Source: a bacterium
GTDB taxonomy: Bacteria; SM23-31; JAUVVT01
Reading direction: 5' to 3'
DNA: 13,863 bases
Assembly (NCBI GenBank): GCA_030616165.1
Contig: JAUWXV010000080.1
Location: forward strand, 1-13,863
Shown: in pieces, positions 1,906 through 12,935 of the stretch
Layout of the letters: each line of letters starts with the position of its first letter
Position numbering within the stretch: position 1 is the stretch's first letter
Notes under the pieces: model-generated
Told to the model about the DNA's origin: nothing
What the model saw: the letters and a program-made list of their open reading frames with translations, nothing else
Database searches by the model: none
Position numbers and translations under genes: made by a program

Positions 1906-3486
1906 ATGTCAGAAATTAATCGTCGCAGTTTTTTGAAAGCATCTACTGGTGCAGTTTGTGCCACTGCATTAGTTGGACCGATGACTGCAAAACCAAAGGA
2001 AATTTTAAAGAATAGTAAAAACGCGAAGGTTTATACAGTATTTTATCCTACAGCTCCTTCTGCAGATGATACTTCGGTTGTTCCGACATCAAACAGAGAA
2101 ATTTTAACTATGTTAAAGAGAAAATGTGATGGAGTTGATTTTATAGCAAGAGATTTAACAAGACCTGCAAAAAGTGCGATAAGTCCGGGTGAAGGTATTG
2201 AATTAAAACCTTCAACTCTTGCGGGTGTTATCAATGAAATGGAAGACCTGAGAAAATTGGAATTTGACGGAGTTCTTATTATTGGGCAAGCAAGGAATTA
2301 TGCATTAACGGAGACTTCCGGGCTGCCGACAATAATTACGAATGTTATTGGTGACTTTATGGGTAATCCCTATGCACTTTACAAAAAACAAGGAGGGATA
2401 TTAAAAGCTGATATAGACCCATGGCATTATAGTGCTTATTCGAAGGATTCTGAGGCTATGTTTGAAGATTTAGTTGAAAAAATAAAATTGATTAGAGCTC
2501 TCAAGAAGATGAAAGAATCAAGGATTCTAATTGTAACAGATGATGAATATGTCAATTCCTACAGAGGAGATGCTCGAAAAAGTTATCCACCCGGATATAA
2601 CGAGATTATTCTCAGTGAATTGGATAAAGTTTTAGGAACAAAAGTGACAAAGATAGGAAGTGATGAAGTAACTGAAAACGGGGATATTCAGAATCTATGG
2701 CACAATGATAGCCCCGAAGCAGAAGAAATTGCGAAAATGTGGATAAGCGAAGCCGAAGGAATGAAGAATACAATAGAGTCTGAGGTGGTGAGAGCGGCTA
2801 AGGTGTATTTGGCTTTAAAAATATTGATGAAGAAATATAATGCTACTGCGATAGCTTTCCATCTCAGGTCCCTAATTAAAAATCCAAGACCCGAGGATAA
2901 GGTCTGGCCATGTTTATGTACTGGAGAATTTCAAAAACAGGGAATAGTCGCATGCTGTCAGGCACATTTAAATATAATACTTACCCATATGTTAGCGCAG
3001 TATGCTTTCGGAAGACCGAGTATGATGGGTGATTTTCAGGTATATACATTCCATAATTTATCTATTGTTCAGCATTGTGAAGGTCCATTTAATATTTACG
3101 GAGGAGATGACAGAGTTCCTTATATATTGGTGGGTCATAGAGAGAGGGATGTAAGGGGACATTCACAAACCGGAGTTGGGGCAGTTGCGACAATATTTTA
3201 CCCACCAAACGAACCAGTTACAATATGGAGGATTAATCTGCTTACAAAGGAAGTACTTGTTCACACCGGGACTACTATTTCGAGAGCCTCTGTTTTTAAA
3301 AATCATTATGAAGAGATGATGTGAAGGACGAAGATAATTGCATCAGTTGATGCAAAGAAGGTAATAGAACATATTTATCCAGATTATTACGGGGTTCATA
3401 GATCAGCAACTTTTGGTGACCATAGAGAACGGATTAAGGATTTGGCAACTTTGATGGGGTATAATGTCATAGAAGAGGACAGATGA
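1906..3486 (+). CDS. Tat-exported L-fucose-isomerase-like protein with in-frame TGA; candidate selenoprotein
   Basis: Conventional calling ends this gene at the TGA at 3322-3324 (472 residues). The same frame continues for 53 codons to TGA at 3484-3486 (526 residues, TGA at residue 473). The N-terminus carries a twin-arginine motif, NRRSFLK (residues 5-11), plus a hydrophobic stretch, so a folded enzyme is probably exported. The C-terminal half resembles the L-fucose/L-arabinose isomerase-like superfamily (COG2407-type): CLCTGEFQKQG (336-346), ACCQAHLN (349-356), MMGDFQVYTFHN (373-384) and GHRERDVRGHS (410-420). By analogy with FucI, Glu341, Asp376 and His498 are candidate metal ligands; His498 lies in the part after the TGA. 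That part (YYGVHRSATFGDHRERIKDL, then a V-I-E-E-D end) looks like a normal family C-terminus. From memory, homologues often have Cys before R-T/D-K, so the TGA would replace Cys. Readthrough as selenocysteine is inference; a nonsense mutation or base error is the alternative. Sugar substrate unknown. Confidence 0.8.
3322..3324 (+). other. In-frame TGA, possible selenocysteine codon
   Basis: The TGA follows ...EEMM and is followed directly by RTKIIASVD in the same frame, with no shift. Other genes here use TGA as a real stop (for example at 9522-9524 on the minus strand) and encode Trp by TGG, so genome-wide TGA recoding is unlikely. A local hairpin downstream supports site-specific selenocysteine insertion. 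Confidence 0.55.
3338..3355 (+). promoter_or_regulatory. Candidate bacterial SECIS hairpin downstream of the in-frame TGA
   Basis: TTGCATC (3338-3344) pairs perfectly with GATGCAA (3349-3355) around the loop AGTT; counted as DNA it is an 8+8 inverted repeat around GT. Twenty bases separate the TGA from the apical loop, and the loop has G as its second base, followed by U. Bacterial SECIS elements, as known from E. coli fdhF and from published search models, sit immediately after the UGA, inside the coding region, with the apical loop roughly 16-37 bases downstream and a conserved G near the start of the loop. No bulged U like that of fdhF is seen, and the lower stem does not extend. No selA, selB or selC is in the window. 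Confidence 0.5.
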
Positions 3487-3641
3487 TTTAAGATTAAATT
3501 TTTAAAGTATAGTATAGGAATAATCAGAGAATTTATAAAAAAATTATAGGTCAGTGAAATTCTTTTAAGTGTCTCATAAGTCTTTCTTTTGAATAAATTC
3601 GGGCATCTTATTTTGAGTCTAATTATTTTAAAATATCATAT
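3487..3641. other. Convergent intergenic region
   Basis: This AT-rich spacer lies between the ends of two convergent genes. A bidirectional terminator would be expected, but no GC-rich stem followed by a T tract is visible. The only symmetry is a weak 9-bp AT-rich stem (3526-3534 with 3557-3565, one G-U pair) around a 22-base loop. Confidence 0.4.
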
Positions 3642-5774
3642 TTATTGATTTGCAATCGGTTTTCCATCAGCGTTCAACGTTTCTATCATACGGAGTTTCT
3701 TCTCTTGTAATACTTTATAGCAATCGGGCAGATCAAAGAATTTCAGTATATTTGGAACAAAACAAGAAAGGGGCCAGGAATATGTTTCAGACTCAGCAAC
3801 TGCTGAATATGAAGTTAGTGCATTTTTAATAGTAACCTGCTTAACCTGATTTGATAAGACAGAGGCAAATACCGCAGGAATAGACCCCCATCCTTTACCT
3901 ACCAAATGTACTTCTTCATGCCCGCATTCTCTAAGCCAGTCGAGTACACGCATTATGTCGAGGGTCTTTTGTCCTACGTACGGTTTATCAAGCATTAAAG
4001 AATGGCCTGCATACAAATAGTCACTTCCATAAGGATCAAGAAATGAATTCGGATAGCATGTGTTTGGCTTTGATTCTCCAATCCCCCGAACATCGCAAGT
4101 GTAAAATACCGAAGCAGGTTCGATAGAGATTAGTTCTTTAATGAGAGGTTCCTCCCGCAATTCCGCATCACTCGAATGATGTGCTATGTACAAAACAGCA
4201 CGTTTGTTTTCTTTTGGCGGTCTTGACATCATTCTCTCATCAGACAGGCGGTAGACTATTGCAAAAATTCCCGGTTCTGTTTCAACGGAATACACGCAAA
4301 ACTGTTTCGGATACGAATTCCGATTATGATAGCTCCTTCCGTAGCTATGAGCCATATATCTATATTCAGGAGTGGGATTATTACGCTGTAATTCAGAAAG
4401 GTTATCCAGCCGAAGGAGTTTTATAATCTGCTGTTTTAATTCTTCCTGTGTAAAACTTTTTTGCCTTTTTTTTGCTAATTCCAGCGACTTTTCTTTTGTA
4501 AATGAATATACAGGTTTGGAATTTAACTCTGATACCTGCCCGTTTGGAGCACACCAAATAGTCTCATCTTTTTCAATAACAATCTCGGGTTCTTTTTGAG
4601 CATTTGAAATACCTGTAATATTGTTAAAAAACTGGTACATCGCTTCACGGTTATCCTGTGTATATCCATGATATCCTTCACCCGCAAAAAACTGGACATT
4701 TTCTTCCGCACCTAATTTTTTATATAAATGTTTGAGCTGTTCATAAGCAGTTTCTGAGCCACGTACATCAAAGTAATCCTTCTTTTTTGCAAGAATAATC
4801 ACAGGTTTCGGCACCATAGCAGCAAGGAAATCAAACATATCAAGTCCTAAGCTTAATATTTTGGGTGGATATTGCTCTGTGTCTGCAGGGAGTTCATTCT
4901 CGAGGTTTCTTCTAAAGGTGGTTACAAAACAACCCGGTGCCCCCATGGTAAACCTGCTTTCAACACCGCATAGCCAGGTTGTCATAGTACCGCCTCCGGA
5001 ATTACCAGTAACGCCGATTTGATCGGGGTCAACTTCCTTTCGGGTGAGCAGGTAGTCTAAAGCACGGATTCCATCCCATGCACGCCATGAACCGAAAGAT
5101 TCACCGACCAGGGCTTGTTGGTTTCCGGCACACAAATGTTCCTGCACGGGACTGCCGATTTTTGACTTTAAATTTTCATCTGGATACTGCAGACGTTCTC
5201 CCTGCCCTATAGGGTCGTAAATCAGGACAACATATCCCAGTCTTGCCAGCCCCTGTGCAAAAGACTGATAAAATTCGGACGCTTTACCATTAACAGAATG
5301 ACCGCATGTTCCCACCACTCCCGGCAGTGGAAACTTTCTACCTTTGGGGATGTAAAGGTTCGCCGTGACAAGAAAATTAGGCCGGCTTTCAAAGATAATA
5401 TTTTCAATCTTATACGTATCACGTTCGATAACTTTAACAATACGAGGATTCAAAGGTGTTTTTTCAGGCCAGGGTCCAAAACTGAGCTGAATTTTCCCTC
5501 TTACGTCCCGAATATAAGCTTCAGCTTCGGCAGCGGTCTTTATGGCAGACCGGCGCTTATTTGCTGTCTCTTCTAACTGTTTTAAATGCCGAACAAAATA
5601 TTCATGCACCATACGGGGAAATCTATTGGGGGATTCTGTGGTATTATTTAGGGTCTGTGGAAAAGTCATATCTATCCAGAAACTGATAAACAAAATAGAG
5701 GTTAAAAGGGTAATTAATTTGAAATATATCTTACTTTGCATTGATTTTCTTCGTAATATAGAAATTGAATACAT
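3642..5774 (-). CDS. Secreted acetylxylan-esterase-like protein with two alpha/beta hydrolase domains
   Basis: This 710-residue protein starts at the ATG at 5774, preceded by GAGGTG; a longer reading from a TTG at 5792 would run through that ribosome site. A basic n-region (RRK) and hydrophobic segment LITLLTSILFISFWI (about residues 21-35) form a signal peptide or anchor. Domain 1 (about 95-390) is a serine hydrolase of the acetylxylan esterase/dienelactone hydrolase type. It has an oxyanion-type segment (GTCGHSVNGK), GYVVLIYDPIGQGER, the nucleophile elbow GNSGGG (Ser259), an acid in KKDYFDVRGS (Asp333 or Asp336) and a His in GEGYHGYTQ (His369). Domain 2 (about 490-700) repeats the fold (YTCDVRGIGES, then VHLVGKGWGSIPA), but its elbow GKGWG has Gly628 where the Ser should be, so it is probably non-catalytic. 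Such tandem proteins of about 700 residues are common in Planctomycetes and allied phyla. Likely role: deacetylating or de-esterifying a polysaccharide outside the cytoplasm. It converges on the isomerase-like gene; substrate not determined. Confidence 0.85.
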   Translation of the reverse strand: MYSISILRRKSMQSKIYFKLITLLTSILFISFWIDMTFPQTLNNTTESPNRFPRMVHEYFVRHLKQLEETANKRRSAIKTAAEAEAYIRDVRGKIQLSFGPWPEKTPLNPRIVKVIERDTYKIENIIFESRPNFLVTANLYIPKGRKFPLPGVVGTCGHSVNGKASEFYQSFAQGLARLGYVVLIYDPIGQGERLQYPDENLKSKIGSPVQEHLCAGNQQALVGESFGSWRAWDGIRALDYLLTRKEVDPDQIGVTGNSGGGTMTTWLCGVESRFTMGAPGCFVTTFRRNLENELPADTEQYPPKILSLGLDMFDFLAAMVPKPVIILAKKKDYFDVRGSETAYEQLKHLYKKLGAEENVQFFAGEGYHGYTQDNREAMYQFFNNITGISNAQKEPEIVIEKDETIWCAPNGQVSELNSKPVYSFTKEKSLELAKKRQKSFTQEELKQQIIKLLRLDNLSELQRNNPTPEYRYMAHSYGRSYHNRNSYPKQFCVYSVETEPGIFAIVYRLSDERMMSRPPKENKRAVLYIAHHSSDAELREEPLIKELISIEPASVFYTCDVRGIGESKPNTCYPNSFLDPYGSDYLYAGHSLMLDKPYVGQKTLDIMRVLDWLRECGHEEVHLVGKGWGSIPAVFASVLSNQVKQVTIKNALTSYSAVAESETYSWPLSCFVPNILKFFDLPDCYKVLQEKKLRMIETLNADGKPIANQ

Positions 5775-6108: not shown

Positions 6109-7149
6109 TTAATGGACTTTTTCGTATTTTTCAATTTCATCGCTGATTTCAGCAAGACGGATAAAAAGGGATTCAAGTTTGGCGAAATAATCTCGTTCAG
6201 TGTATTTCGTCTTTTCTGCTTTTAAAAGGAATATTTCCTGGTTAATTTCTTTCTGTTCAAGGAAATATTTCGCAAAAACACTATCACCTGTGCTTGCCAC
6301 TGCTGCCTCGACTGCCCTGGTGCGTTCCAGCAAGTACGTGATACTCGACAGGCTGCCCTCGGCGTAATCATCCAGTTCTTCAGCCCTATAAGCGGACTTG
6401 TCCCCGGTATCTTCTAACAGCGGATGTTCTGTTGCAAGATGGTCACTCTCTTCATACCATCTTGCCGTCCTTTCGGATGCATATTGAAAAGCCTCCAACA
6501 CGGAGAGGTCACCATTTTTATCCTGGTCAGATGCACTGCTGTTCATGGCTTCAATCAGGAATTTGGGGAAAATAGTTTCATTCCGTTCTGTCCCGCTTTT
6601 TGTGGCAGTAATTATAATCCTTCTTGGTGCACTGAGATGGGTGATAAATGGGGCACTGCAGCTTGTGGTATTGATAAATATAATTCTACGGGCATTTAGA
6701 GTCTGGACCAATTCAGCATAATCGGCATCCTTCAAATCCCGCCGGGGAATGTTCAACATTGCATTTTTACCATCAAAACTGCCGTGACCGAAAAGAAAAA
6801 TATAGATATCATCTTTATCGGTTACTTTTTTCGAAAGATTGGAAAATTGTGCTTTTATATTTTCAGCGGTGGAAATTTCATTAATAAAATTTTCTTCCTC
6901 TGAACGGGAGTCAGCCAGAACGATTATATTGTTCTCCGAAAACTGGAATTTTTCAATAAGGTTTTTCCGGGTTTCATACAGGTATTTATGGAATTTTTCC
7001 CTGTATTCCCGGCTGCCGCCCAATCCGACAATTAGTAGTACATACCGCCTGGTTTCATCCTGGGCATATACCGCTCCGAATCCGGTAAAAAAGTATATGC
7101 AGAGGTAAATAACTACCAAGTTTATTTTCTTTATATTATAAAGTACCAT
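6109..7149 (-). CDS. Secreted caspase/legumain-like cysteine protease (clan CD) with EF-hand loop
   Basis: This 346-residue protein has a signal peptide (hydrophobic residues 10-26, VYA then Q, cleavage near 29). The mature part opens with YVLLIVGLGGSREYR, the first strand of a caspase-type fold. The catalytic dyad is clear: His122 in LFGHGSFDG (119-127) after a hydrophobic strand, and Cys164 in IFINTTSCSAPFI (157-169) after the next strand. This HGS/SC pairing fits clan CD, closer to legumain-like C13 than to animal caspases. Between the catalytic core and the tail is DQDKNGDLSVLE (208-219), a textbook 12-residue EF-hand loop, which suggests calcium control. The C-terminal part (about 265-343) is helical and charged, probably a coiled coil. 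It is the last gene of the VWA operon, 19 bases after the preceding stop, with only a weak ribosome site. It probably works in the periplasm; the target is unknown. Identity as a clan CD peptidase is confident, specificity is not. Confidence 0.85.
   Translation of the reverse strand: MVLYNIKKINLVVIYLCIYFFTGFGAVYAQDETRRYVLLIVGLGGSREYREKFHKYLYETRKNLIEKFQFSENNIIVLADSRSEEENFINEISTAENIKAQFSNLSKKVTDKDDIYIFLFGHGSFDGKNAMLNIPRRDLKDADYAELVQTLNARRIIFINTTSCSAPFITHLSAPRRIIITATKSGTERNETIFPKFLIEAMNSSASDQDKNGDLSVLEAFQYASERTARWYEESDHLATEHPLLEDTGDKSAYRAEELDDYAEGSLSSITYLLERTRAVEAAVASTGDSVFAKYFLEQKEINQEIFLLKAEKTKYTERDYFAKLESLFIRLAEISDEIEKYEKVH
6493..6528 (-). other. EF-hand calcium-binding loop inside the caspase-like protease
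   Basis: Residues 208-219 read D-x-D-x-N-G-D-L-S-V-L-E. Acidic or polar ligands stand at positions 1, 3, 5 and 9, with Gly at 6 and Glu at 12, the full canonical spacing. Only one loop is seen, as in dockerin-like or single EF-hand insertions. Confidence 0.75.
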
Positions 7150-7168: not shown

Positions 7169-9484
7169 TTACGGGAGTCCCTTTTGCCTCCTGTATATCC
7201 ATTCTGCCGAAAATAAAATGACTAAAAGCAGGAAGATTAACGGTAAATCCCATAAGTATTCTGTGCGATAAACCGAGGTTCTTGTTTTCCGTGTTTTTAA
7301 ATTTATCGGGATATCTTCAGCCTCAAATGGTTCGTAATATATACCACCGTTTAATTCCGCAAGATTTTCAAGGAAATCTCTTTTAAGTGTAGCGTTATAG
7401 AACTCTTTTTTTGAAGGGCGACTAAGGAAACTCTGATACTTTTTTCCGATAGTTTCGCCGTTTTGTTGAGCCTCGACCTCTATTGTATATACCCCCGGAT
7501 GTTGCGGTATAAACGTACTCAGGTATTCTCCCTCTTCGGTTAATTCGGGACGGAAGTGTATCTCATGGATGCCGCCGAATGGATCCGTAAGGATTCCTGA
7601 AACATCTGTAAAAATCAACGGGTCGTATTTGTTGTCATAAACACCGACTCGAATCGGGATTTCGATACCCGGTTCAAAACGATTTTCAGTAAGGTCAATA
7701 TTGACTTTACCTGGAGAATCGGTGCTCAGCCATCGTGCAAATTGACGCCAGAACCTTTCATGGCGTGTATCCTTTGCATCAAGTAACATCTGCCACCGCC
7801 AGGTGCTCGCAGTAGCAAGAGCCGCCGTCCGTCCCTTCCCATACCGCTGTATAACGAGCAATGGCTCACGACCTCCATACCGATCCTCGGGCTTTTCAGC
7901 GAGAATAGTCGCTCCCGGTTTCACAACACCAAAATAGTTAATAGTGAAGAGTTTGGGCATTTCATCCCATATTGACCTGTTTGTCGTTACATTGGTTGCC
8001 AATTTCAAAATAGGATTTTCCAATCCGGCACCTGTCGGCACAAATTTGAAACCCTGTTCTTCTTCAGGAATAACGGGATTTTTAAAGTCCGGCTGAATTG
8101 TCATCCTCCTCTTCGGGTCCAGTTCAACCGGCAAAAGGTCGGCAATCGGGGTATTCCAGAAATCTCCCTCTGCAAAAGAATTACGACCACCCAACATTAA
8201 AAAACCTCCACCCCTCTTTCTGACAAATTTCTCGACCATCTCGAGCTGCTTTATAGAGAAATAGCTCGCCTCAATATCACCAAATATAACAGCCTTAAAA
8301 CCGAACAGTTCTTCCTCAGAGTCAGGAAATCCACCTCTTAGTTCATTGACCGTATATATACCCTGACGATAATATTTCCCGGTACCGGTTCTCGTTATAG
8401 AGGTAAAATCCAAAACCTGATCGTCTTCCAATACTCTTTTGATAAATTTAAAATCGCTGCGCAAATGTCCCTCTAAATAAAGTATCCTGATAGTATCTTT
8501 TTTAGAATCAATTAACATGTTGAGGGTGTTGTTCTCAACATTCAATTCATTCAGTACAGGAGTTATTTGCACGGTGTATTCTGCCGCATCATCTTCTTCA
8601 GGTTCATAAAAAAATGAGAAAAGATCAATTTTACCATTTCCTTTAAGGTTCATATCTTTAGTAAAAGCCAGTTTCTCTCCTTTATAAATATTGAATGTAA
8701 CTGGCTCTATTTCATCGATCCAGCTTCTCACCTTTACTTCTACTTCCGCCCCTGTACCTTCCAGCAATTCCTTGTTGGTTGTTACGTCCAGGAGTTCACG
8801 TTCCTGCTCTAACGTCTCACTTCCCAGACCAACAATATGCAGCGGAATGTCAAGACTGCGAAGTTCTTCTGCAATACTCCGTGTATCATCTTTGCTGTTG
8901 TCACCTCCGTCTGAAAACAGGAGAATGCCTGCCAGTGGAAGACCTTTAAAATCTGAAAGAACACGCTGCAGAGATGCTGTAAAATTTGTTTCACGCCCAT
9001 CTGGCTCCAGATACGCTATACTGTCCACACGCGATGCTTCATTACTAAAAATATAATGACGAATTCTAAAATTTTCTTCCAGTTCGGACAGTATGCCGTT
9101 ATTATTATCTAATAATATAGTATTAATATCATCATGGCGGGTCTGTCCGAAATAACCGTCAGGTATGTTCATGCTCGCAGAATTGTCTATCAATACCGCG
9201 AGAAAGTTTTCATTCGGAATAACGTCCGGCATCATAAGCATTGGTTCAAAAAGCGGAAAGCAGAGCAGGAGAAGTACGATTATCCTGAGGCTAATTGAGA
9301 ATACTCTGCTCCGGTTTCTTGCATATATGTTCGTTAGATAATAGATAATTAAGAAGCCAATGAGTAGAATCAGCAACAATCCCAAGAACAGGTATGCGGC
9401 ATTACCTGCCTGGAATAAAAAATCCCCTTCTTCATAGTTTATTCGTTTAAACTTTAAAAGATATTCGAACCACTTTTCAGACAT
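7169..9484 (-). CDS. Membrane VWA-domain protein with glutamine-amidotransferase-like domain
   Basis: This is a 771-residue membrane protein. Two N-terminal transmembrane helices (about 30-50 and 63-80) are followed by a von Willebrand factor A domain (about 93-225) with a complete metal-ion-dependent adhesion site: DNSAS (100-104), Thr166 and Asp192 in LFSDGGDN. A beta-rich linker (240-325) leads to a class I glutamine-amidotransferase-like domain (about 330-650), marked by IRILYLEGH and GGGFLMLGGRNSFAEGDFW. The nucleophilic Cys of real amidotransferases is not evident there, so this domain is probably structural or ligand-binding. A beta-sandwich segment (about 610-700) follows, then a C-terminal transmembrane helix near 747-760 (LIFLLLVILFSAEW). 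The VWA domain should face the periplasm. Family members sit in MoxR/DUF58 operons. The gene starts 37 bases after the preceding stop and ends 19 bases before the protease gene, so it probably acts with both neighbours. Confidence 0.85.
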   Translation of the reverse strand: MSEKWFEYLLKFKRINYEEGDFLFQAGNAAYLFLGLLLILLIGFLIIYYLTNIYARNRSRVFSISLRIIVLLLLCFPLFEPMLMMPDVIPNENFLAVLIDNSASMNIPDGYFGQTRHDDINTILLDNNNGILSELEENFRIRHYIFSNEASRVDSIAYLEPDGRETNFTASLQRVLSDFKGLPLAGILLFSDGGDNSKDDTRSIAEELRSLDIPLHIVGLGSETLEQERELLDVTTNKELLEGTGAEVEVKVRSWIDEIEPVTFNIYKGEKLAFTKDMNLKGNGKIDLFSFFYEPEEDDAAEYTVQITPVLNELNVENNTLNMLIDSKKDTIRILYLEGHLRSDFKFIKRVLEDDQVLDFTSITRTGTGKYYRQGIYTVNELRGGFPDSEEELFGFKAVIFGDIEASYFSIKQLEMVEKFVRKRGGGFLMLGGRNSFAEGDFWNTPIADLLPVELDPKRRMTIQPDFKNPVIPEEEQGFKFVPTGAGLENPILKLATNVTTNRSIWDEMPKLFTINYFGVVKPGATILAEKPEDRYGGREPLLVIQRYGKGRTAALATASTWRWQMLLDAKDTRHERFWRQFARWLSTDSPGKVNIDLTENRFEPGIEIPIRVGVYDNKYDPLIFTDVSGILTDPFGGIHEIHFRPELTEEGEYLSTFIPQHPGVYTIEVEAQQNGETIGKKYQSFLSRPSKKEFYNATLKRDFLENLAELNGGIYYEPFEAEDIPINLKTRKTRTSVYRTEYLWDLPLIFLLLVILFSAEWIYRRQKGLP

Positions 9485-9521: not shown

Positions 9522-12500
9522 TCATTTTTTTTTGGAGATTGACTCGAAATACTTATCAACCAATCTCTTGTACTCTGGAGGGACTTCCGCTTTACGCATG
9601 CCGTATAGCTTTTTCTCTAATTCAATCGCATCCAGACGTTCTAAAAGGTGCATTTCAATCTGTGACAATGGGTCAAAAATATTTTTCTTAAAATGTTCCT
9701 TTGCAGCCTCATCAAGGAGTTCGCCGGTTATACGAGGTGCGGCTGTATGACGGGCACCTTCAAGAGTATGCCGCATACCGCTGTCATCCATATACTCCCG
9801 CTCCATTCTATCTATCATCTGCTGGAATTGTTCGAGAAGTCTCTGCATTCGTACAGTGTTATTTCGGTCTCGGTCTCCACCGCCTCTTCCCCCCTGCTGC
9901 TGGTCCTGCATCTGTTCCTGTCCTTGCGACTGTTGCTGCTGCTCTCTGCTGTTTGTATTCTGCTGGCTATCACGCTGCTGCTGTTGATTCGGCTGTGTCT
10001 GTGCCGTAATTTCTTCAAAACGTCTAAGCATTTCCCTCGTATCTTCAAGAGACCGGCTTAATCTTTCTTCTTCAGTTATAGGTAATCCACCTTCCAGTTC
10101 ACGTATCTGGTTCTCCAGCATCTCAATGCTGTACTGTATATTATCCTCAAGTATACGGGCATATGTCAGCCATCCATTTTGTAAAAAAACCCTTGATTCT
10201 TCCATTTTCCTTTCTAAATCTTCACGTTTAATGGTGTTCTGGATATTTCTCATATCCGTTGAAGTCTGTGGATTTTCCTGGAGTGTTTGCTCTTCAATCG
10301 CCTTTGCCTGATTTTCCAGACTTTTCAGGTTGTCAATCATGTTTTCTCTATTTTCAGTTATTCTTTTCAGATTAGTTTCATCATACACCTTCCCGCGATT
10401 CTTTTGTATTTCATCGAACGTTTCACGGATATCCTTAGCAAGTTGATTCTCCTGCTCCTTGAACTGCTCAAAGTTTTCCGTAAAATTATCGAGCATCTCC
10501 CGGGCATTATCGGTAAGTGACATCCGCATATCTTGCTGTAGTTTATTGAGTTCGTTCAATGCCTGGCGCTGTTTAGACATCGACTGCTGTATGTTTCCAT
10601 TTTTCATTTCTTGTTCAGCCTGACGCATCGTCTCAGCAATCCTCTGCATCCGTTCCTGTAATTGTCTCGTAATCTGCTGATTATCCCTTGACATCTGCCG
10701 CATCGTGTTGGATAAGTTTTCCGCCTCCTGCCGAAGTTCCTCCTGGTCACGTTTCAGGCGGTCTAAAAATCTTCGGTCATCTTCCTCCTGAAGATTATTT
10801 CTGCTCTGATTGGCGAGCAATTGCTGCCTTTTTGCAAGTTCCTCAATCTTTTGTAAAGCATCGTTGACCTCTTCGTTCTGCTGTTGTTCACTCTGCTGCT
10901 GCTGTATTTCATATTTGTCCTTGGAAATATCGAGTTCAAGGTCCATTAATTCCGTCATTCGCTCTTCACTCGGAGACCTCTGGCTTCCGCCTGCCTGGCT
11001 TGCCTGCTGGCGACTCCGCTGAACACGCTTTTCCTTATTTTTTGCATCTGCTTTTAACAAGTAGTTGAGTGCCTTTTGTTCCGGCTTCAGTGCCTCTACC
11101 AGTTCACTATCGGTTAAAAAGTCGACCGCCGAATTCATTTCTTTCACCGCGGCGCGGAGTAAATCCGCAATTTCCTTATTCTCTTCGTCGGTAATCATCT
11201 CCATTGAAAACGCAGTGGAATTAACACGACTGTCAATGTTGTCTCTTAGATTTGTCTGTGCCTGGACGAGTGCTTCCCTGGATTCTTCAAAGTCTTCGGG
11301 AGTCTTTTCATTCCTCAGCCGGTAGAGTTTCCACGTTGCGGCTATAATCATTTGTTGATTGATAACCATCTGACTGCCCTGCTGACCGCCCTGCTGTTCA
11401 CCGCCACTTTGTTGATTATTTACCTGTGTGTATTTCGCATCAAATGGAATTACCTCGATAAAATACATATCCGTTACCGCAGGATTATCTTTGTGGAAAT
11501 TATCTTCTGCTTCAACGTAATATGAGATTATATCACCCGGCTCTAAAATAAAATCTTCAAGATAAAAAATATGTGCCCCGGAAACATCTGTAACACCCCT
11601 GGAGTCATTGTCAATAAGGTCGACTGGTTTTTCTTCATCACCATTTATCGAGTATTTTAGTTGAACCCTGTTAACGCCAAAATCATCCGTTACAGATGCC
11701 GCAAGTAATACCTCCTCCACCGCGTTAACCCGGACGTCCCTCTGCGGGTCGGTTATGGTGATTATTGGCAATTCGTCATCAACGGGCGTAATTTGATATT
11801 CTTCAGGAAATTTATTGTTTTTATCCTCTTTATCAGTCAGTTTTACATAGTATATTCCATAATCCTGTAAAGTAAGATTTCCACGAAAAATCCCATTATA
11901 GAGAGGTCTCAATGGAATACGCTGGGAATCGTTCACTATCAGTTCTCCTGTGACCACAGTACCGGTTGTCTCGATTGTTAACGTAACTTCCGAACCTTTT
12001 AATCCGCGGATATTCCCCGTGTTCTCTTCAGTTCTATCCGGCAAACCTGTATATGAAGGATAGGAGTATTTCAAATCGATTTGAGTAACTTTCGGAAATT
12101 CATATATCGATATTGTAAACTCAGGAGAACGCATTTCGTTGAGTTCAATGTAGTAGTTGATAGGCTCCTGAATACTCAAGAATTGATACATATACAACGG
12201 CTTATTAAGCCCTTTCTCCATAATTTCCTTGCGCCAGATATCTTCCTCTATTTTAAAATGCAGTACAACATCATCATACGATGCCTTCTTAAGTTCCGCC
12301 ATTATTTCCTGAGACTCTCCTTTTTCAATTTGAATATTACCGGGAATTATGTGAATAATATCCTGTTGAATCTCAGCCGCTGGCATTGAAATGAGCTCCA
12401 TTTTCGAAGTTACCGTGCTTATATCATCCTTGAAAGTATAGATGAAAAGCAGAAAAAGAAGAAGCAGTCCGTAAGCAGTATATGAAAGTATTCGCTCTTT

Positions 12501-12935
12501 TTTGCGGTCGATAACTGTAGAAATTTGAACTGTCTGTGCTTTGCGTGAAGCGTCGTCAATGAGTTTGTCAAACAGGATGTTTTTTTCGCGTTGCGATAAA
12601 AGACCATCTACTTCTACTGCACTGTTAATACGGTCTTCCAACTCCGGAATCTTTTCTTCGATAAAAAGGGCAATCTTTTGGTTACTAAGTCGCTGACACA
12701 AAGGGCGGATGACAAACTGCACTATTTCAACGAGGAGAACTATTGATGCCACTGCAATACCGATGCTTTGAAACAAGGGAGAAATGCCAAACTGGTAACT
12801 CAAAAGAATGTAGATTACTGCAAAAAAGATAAATGTTAAGACAGTGATAGCAATTCCCTGTTTTAAAGTCCTGAATATCCAGCGCCTTTTAATATCTTTG
12901 ACTAATTTCTTGAGTTTGTAAGATGAAGTTTTCAT
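9522..12935 (-). CDS. Large membrane protein with beta-sandwich and Q-rich coiled-coil regions (DUF4175-like)
   Basis: This 1137-residue protein begins at an ATG with AGAGG 7 bases upstream. Transmembrane helices lie at about 26-46, 55-75 and 150-167. The exposed part has several Ig-like beta domains (about 190-500) with landmarks YPSYTGLPDRTEEN (292-305), a conserved type of fold junction, and SVTDDFGVNRVQLKYSING (414-432), typical of this family. From about 505 to 975 it is highly charged, Gln-rich and helical, a long coiled coil with heptad-like R/Q/E/L spacing. A low-complexity Gln/Gly/Arg stretch (978-1022) precedes a helical C-terminal domain (1026-1130). It resembles the large DUF4175-type proteins found between VWA genes in MoxR operons; the exact family is from memory. 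It may act as a scaffold in a membrane complex with the flanking VWA proteins. The gene ends in nine A residues before TGA. Molecular function unknown. Confidence 0.75.
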   Translation of the reverse strand: MKTSSYKLKKLVKDIKRRWIFRTLKQGIAITVLTFIFFAVIYILLSYQFGISPLFQSIGIAVASIVLLVEIVQFVIRPLCQRLSNQKIALFIEEKIPELEDRINSAVEVDGLLSQREKNILFDKLIDDASRKAQTVQISTVIDRKKERILSYTAYGLLLLFLLFIYTFKDDISTVTSKMELISMPAAEIQQDIIHIIPGNIQIEKGESQEIMAELKKASYDDVVLHFKIEEDIWRKEIMEKGLNKPLYMYQFLSIQEPINYYIELNEMRSPEFTISIYEFPKVTQIDLKYSYPSYTGLPDRTEENTGNIRGLKGSEVTLTIETTGTVVTGELIVNDSQRIPLRPLYNGIFRGNLTLQDYGIYYVKLTDKEDKNNKFPEEYQITPVDDELPIITITDPQRDVRVNAVEEVLLAASVTDDFGVNRVQLKYSINGDEEKPVDLIDNDSRGVTDVSGAHIFYLEDFILEPGDIISYYVEAEDNFHKDNPAVTDMYFIEVIPFDAKYTQVNNQQSGGEQQGGQQGSQMVINQQMIIAATWKLYRLRNEKTPEDFEESREALVQAQTNLRDNIDSRVNSTAFSMEMITDEENKEIADLLRAAVKEMNSAVDFLTDSELVEALKPEQKALNYLLKADAKNKEKRVQRSRQQASQAGGSQRSPSEERMTELMDLELDISKDKYEIQQQQSEQQQNEEVNDALQKIEELAKRQQLLANQSRNNLQEEDDRRFLDRLKRDQEELRQEAENLSNTMRQMSRDNQQITRQLQERMQRIAETMRQAEQEMKNGNIQQSMSKQRQALNELNKLQQDMRMSLTDNAREMLDNFTENFEQFKEQENQLAKDIRETFDEIQKNRGKVYDETNLKRITENRENMIDNLKSLENQAKAIEEQTLQENPQTSTDMRNIQNTIKREDLERKMEESRVFLQNGWLTYARILEDNIQYSIEMLENQIRELEGGLPITEEERLSRSLEDTREMLRRFEEITAQTQPNQQQQRDSQQNTNSREQQQQSQGQEQMQDQQQGGRGGGDRDRNNTVRMQRLLEQFQQMIDRMEREYMDDSGMRHTLEGARHTAAPRITGELLDEAAKEHFKKNIFDPLSQIEMHLLERLDAIELEKKLYGMRKAEVPPEYKRLVDKYFESISKKK
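9876..10004 (-). repeat. Low-complexity Gln-rich segment in the DUF4175-like protein
   Basis: Residues 978-1020 are mainly Gln with Gly, Arg, Ser and Asp, encoded by mixed CAA/CAG codons rather than a pure triplet repeat. A second, weaker Gln-rich stretch lies near residues 507-529 and a third near 677-687. They look like flexible linkers between helical segments. The plus-strand open frames opposite them are by-products of this composition. Confidence 0.7.

Follow-up and report, generated by a model that had tools for sequence, protein, structure and literature searches.

A predicted selenocysteine residue in a bacterial protein with the arabinose/fucose-isomerase fold

The DNA analysed here, referred to as the window, is a stretch of 13,863 nucleotides from a bacterium of the SM23-31 lineage (assembly GCA_030616165.1, contig JAUWXV010000080.1). 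It contains a sugar-isomerase-like gene, starting at ATG 1906 with a GGAGG Shine-Dalgarno sequence immediately 5', in which a single in-frame TGA occupies the position of residue 473 and is followed by a frame that stays open for 53 codons (Table 1). The question raised by this locus is whether that codon ends the protein or is read as selenocysteine (Sec), as was proposed in an earlier, sequence-only reading. We put the probability that UGA 473 encodes selenocysteine, as predicted by computation, at about 0.94. The computed support covers the pairing of Sec with Cys, the Sec machinery, the hairpin, the fold and the constraint on the tail of the protein.

Table 1. Positions of the features discussed, in the window unless another contig is named
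Feature	Position	Strand	Basis or remark
CDS of the isomerase-fold protein, predicted to contain Sec	1906..3486	+	526 aa; Sec at 473; final stop TGA 3484-3486
TAT-type N-terminal signal, S-E-I-N-R-R-S-F-L-K	1906..1995	+	TIGR01409, PF10518, RRxFLK
Segment with C351, Q352 (Glu in most relatives), D376, H390, C391	2956..3078	+	Residue table of relatives; near presumed metal site
TGA, predicted to be read as selenocysteine 473	3322..3324	+	TGA in 3 genes, Cys in 41/42 other aligned relatives
Post-TGA C-terminus, 53 codons, with conserved R474, K476, H498	3325..3483	+	Alignment of relatives; purifying selection
Putative bSECIS hairpin UUGCAUC-AGUU-GAUGCAA	3338..3355	+	Loop AGUU 3345-3348, 20 nt past UGA
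selA-selB-selD-selC in a row	contig C100, 115-4617		Machinery matches; SelD itself a UGA gene

Relatives were first sought in 60 genomes, among them that of the window itself (G000) and the only other searched genome of the same family (G001). The sequence-only reading had suggested looking for the same TGA in relatives, and two further genes carry it, each with exactly one in-frame TGA: a paralogue on contig C223 of the window genome, 61% identical to the window gene, and a gene of G001, 64% identical. The homology of the window gene to both of these and to the Cys-containing relatives is full-length, and the TGA lies at the identical aligned codon in all three genes, which stand on separate contigs in two genomes. 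Among the 45 genes from all fetched relatives that align at column 473, 41 have Cys, three have TGA and one has Val, so the cysteine that the sequence-only reading ascribed to homologues is indeed the rule. The nearest relatives free of TGA are two tandem copies in one Planctomycetota MAG (51% and 43% by tblastn), both with Cys at 473. Searching 386 genomes gave about 60 matches to the family, with an internal TGA in these three only and TAA in two others. Maximum-likelihood analysis groups the three TGA genes in a single clade (100/100) that is embedded among Cys genes and lies beside a planctomycete Cys gene, so that a single change from Cys to Sec would be the simplest history. Among 392 genomes of the planctomycete phylum, relatives turned up in none but the one already found, and plasmid records searched for the family gave no match.

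The genes required for insertion of selenocysteine, whose presence had been named as a check, were all found in the window genome: those for SelA (455 bits, its N-terminus appearing to be on contig C84), SelB (353 bits) and SelD (362 bits), and that for tRNA-Sec (70 bits), which ARAGORN calls as tRNA-SeC with anticodon tca. The selD gene has an in-frame TGA of its own, at a site that we read as K-C-A-G-U-A-G-K. In draft genomes the contig bearing the sel genes could in principle have been misbinned, but SelA occurs throughout the clade, being found in 6/6 genomes examined of this phylum. In G001, which is 70% complete, SelA is present, and SelB, SelD and tRNA-Sec gave no match over the cut-off. 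SelA was not found in G032 or G060, the two searched genomes that carry the nearest Cys relatives, nor was any other part of the Sec machinery. Adjoining selA, at 616-2658 of contig C84, is a gene for a protein with LVIVD-repeat, Ig-like and AhpC-TSA (TlpA-like) regions and a C-terminal T9SS sorting domain. An in-frame TGA in this gene yields W-U-P-V-C, with U470 in a U-x-x-C arrangement, a selenoprotein site of a known type; the product is probably a multi-domain selenoprotein secreted through T9SS.

Bacterial SECIS (bSECIS) hairpins have been modelled with a loop of 3-9 nt that has G in its first two positions, a stem of 4-16 bp, a distance of 16-37 nt from the UGA and a minimum free energy of at most -7.5 kcal/mol (PMC13188914). 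The putative hairpin in the window, with 7 bp and -8.2 kcal/mol, and its counterpart on C223 (UAGCAUC-AGUU-GAUGCUA, -8.6 kcal/mol, with one compensatory change from U-A to A-U) both fall within this model. That of G001 is borderline: its five inner pairs are kept, there is one mismatch, and its -7.4 kcal/mol is marginally outside the limit. An AGUU-loop hairpin is found at 20 nt in 3/3 of the TGA genes, the loop of the selD hairpin is likewise 20 nt from its UGA, and in the TlpA-like gene a hairpin with an AGUUG loop lies 16 nt after the TGA. A comparable hairpin is absent from the planctomycete Cys genes (-2.2 and -1.1 kcal/mol at the site). The presence of a hairpin was rejected as proof of selenocysteine in itself, since a 7-bp hairpin that obeys the rules follows about 7% of the TGA triplets on these contigs, and for this reason its weight rests on conservation and spacing. 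Synonymous codons are conserved at 9/12 positions in the hairpin vs 101/254 in the gene, a comparison that comes from three sequences only and is not convincing.

SelB and Sec-tRNA(Sec) would thus insert selenocysteine at UGA 473, with the hairpin just past the codon as their guide, and Sec would take the place of the nearly invariant Cys of this isomerase-fold family. It is highly improbable that the codon is decoded instead as Cys, Trp or some other amino acid, whether by a suppressor tRNA or because the code has been reassigned. Such decoding would accord with the Cys found here in relatives, and some bacteria do have UCA-anticodon tRNAs other than tRNA-Sec; but other genes of this genome terminate at TGA, the genome has tRNA-Sec together with selA, selB and selD, and hairpins stand after the UGA in all the UGA genes, whereas the planctomycete Cys genes are without them.

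Slimmer still is the chance that the TGA is a real stop, in a gene that is truncated or a pseudogene and has a decaying remnant for a tail. TGA does terminate other genes here in the normal way, as the sequence-only reading had observed for the window: it ends the window gene at 9522-12935 and the alaS-, pcrB- and gmhA-like genes (named from reading their translations) on contig C223. Against termination at codon 473, the same codon recurs in three genes that have diverged to 61-64% identity, and what follows it in them is 70-81% identical and aligns end to end with relatives, retaining the family-conserved residues listed in Table 1. The tail is under purifying selection (dN/dS about 0.2-0.3 when the three TGA genes are compared), and this, with the end-to-end alignment, shows that its homology is not due to chance. 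The frame past the TGA does therefore encode a family C-terminus, as had been claimed. The accompanying argument, that a neutral region would rarely keep both frame and homology, stands for the homology; openness alone is weak evidence, because 53 open codons have a chance of ~3% on base composition alone. Translation of the tail as a separate product would have no in-frame start codon before 3442. Least probable of all is a sequencing or assembly error for TGC or TGG, which the draft state of the genome and the single assembly per species would allow, but which is opposed by the same codon on three independent contigs and by the lack of an internal TGA in the rest of the family members found.

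The fucose-isomerase-like fold attributed to the protein from its sequence is borne out by a structure model (mean pLDDT 80, pTM 0.83), whose best matches are the isomerases of L-fucose, D-arabinose and L-arabinose, aligned along almost the full chain (420-436 residues) at Z about 26, the next-best fold reaching 10.8. On this model the window protein would have the L-arabinose/L-fucose-isomerase fold. It resembles AraA and FucI (PDB 2ajt, 1fui, 3a9r) in overall fold, but differs from them in sequence, with about 12% identity, in the predicted Sec at 473 and in its TAT-type signal. In Pfam and NCBIfam there is no model for the family, and nothing but the TAT signal scored over a cut-off for the window protein. 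The sulfoquinovose isomerase SftI model (NF048012) is matched weakly by paralogues from the window genome, at 46 and 41 bits vs a cut-off of 700, and by the window protein itself at 11.8 bits, far below the cut-off.

In the wider family C351, H390, C391, C473 and H498 are essentially invariant, and by its three nearly invariant cysteines (351, 391 and 473) it stands out as a three-Cys branch within the AraA/FucI superfamily. A profile alignment places the E352 column on E306 of E. coli AraA, a metal ligand; in the Sec clade, as in the planctomycete genes, residue 352 is Gln, so that the window clade is set apart from AraA and FucI both by this substitution and by its three conserved Cys/Sec positions. 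The other presumed ligands, D376, H390 and H498, are present, the histidines being putative equivalents, and conservation of H390 and H498 suggests the same metal site as in AraA/FucI. Along the chain, two of the presumed ligands adjoin Cys/Sec positions, and the third follows Sec473 at a distance of 25 residues. Since the likely ligand Glu352 is Gln in this clade, ordinary aldose-ketose isomerase activity seems doubtful.

Sec473 may lie near the metal site with C351 and C391, where it could act as a metal ligand, or as a nucleophile or redox group towards a substrate that is a sugar or derives from one; we regard such a role as possible, at somewhat under even odds. A fuller proposal, which we rate as rather unlikely, is that the wider family has branched off from the arabinose/fucose isomerases as a three-cysteine lineage, with C351, C391 and Cys/Sec473 around the metal site and a chemistry other than aldose-ketose isomerisation, Sec being the more reactive version. 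The chemistry may then be redox or nucleophilic, or may involve a metal/Fe-S centre, and, if the proposal is true, selenium would enter exported carbohydrate metabolism through a fold that is not known to carry out redox reactions. Export is predicted from the N-terminus, where the window protein matches NCBIfam TIGR01409 at 19.2 bits (cut-off 16.7) and Pfam PF10518 at 21.2, just below the cut-off of 22.7, and whose RRxFLK motif is common to both other Sec genes. A TAT signal would suit a protein that needs its metal bound before export; the window protein probably folds and acquires its metal in the cytoplasm and then leaves by the TAT pathway.

The majority of selenoproteins known so far are redox enzymes or have the thioredoxin fold. 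Selenoprotein formate dehydrogenases exported by the TAT system exist, and share the TAT signal with the window protein, but they are molybdopterin enzymes of unrelated fold. In its UGA, its downstream hairpin within the bSECIS model, its Sec/Cys pair and the accompanying sel genes, the present case is like known bacterial selenoproteins. What sets it apart is the almost certain placement of the 21st amino acid in the arabinose/fucose-isomerase fold. The view that this fold had no known selenoprotein withstood two enquiries: an inventory of 2026 tabulates 119 prokaryotic selenoprotein families or subfamilies (PMC13188914) and has no sugar-isomerase or AraA/FucI-fold family among them; and a text search of the literature, beyond which subscription papers, preprints or RefSeq records may contain one, found no paper joining selenoproteins and sugar isomerases, the two terms co-occurring in one rumen metagenome paper. 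Selenocysteine at a near-invariant Cys suggests real chemistry at that Cys, and Sec473 thereby indicates where the active site may lie in a three-cysteine family that is still poorly characterised. Standard gene callers cut such genes short at the TGA.

The gene neighbourhoods differ, and offer hints only. In the window a ceramidase-like gene lies upstream of the Sec gene, and housekeeping genes adjoin the C223 copy. On contig C381 of G001 an alpha-L-rhamnosidase gene (2137-4245) is divergent from the Sec gene, a hint of deoxy-sugar metabolism. Further along the window, on the minus strand, are genes for a Peptidase C13 (legumain/caspase-like) protein (6109-7149), beside it a glutamine-amidotransferase-like membrane protein (7169-9484), and, at 9522-12935, a protein of 1137 aa rich in Gln and Glu.
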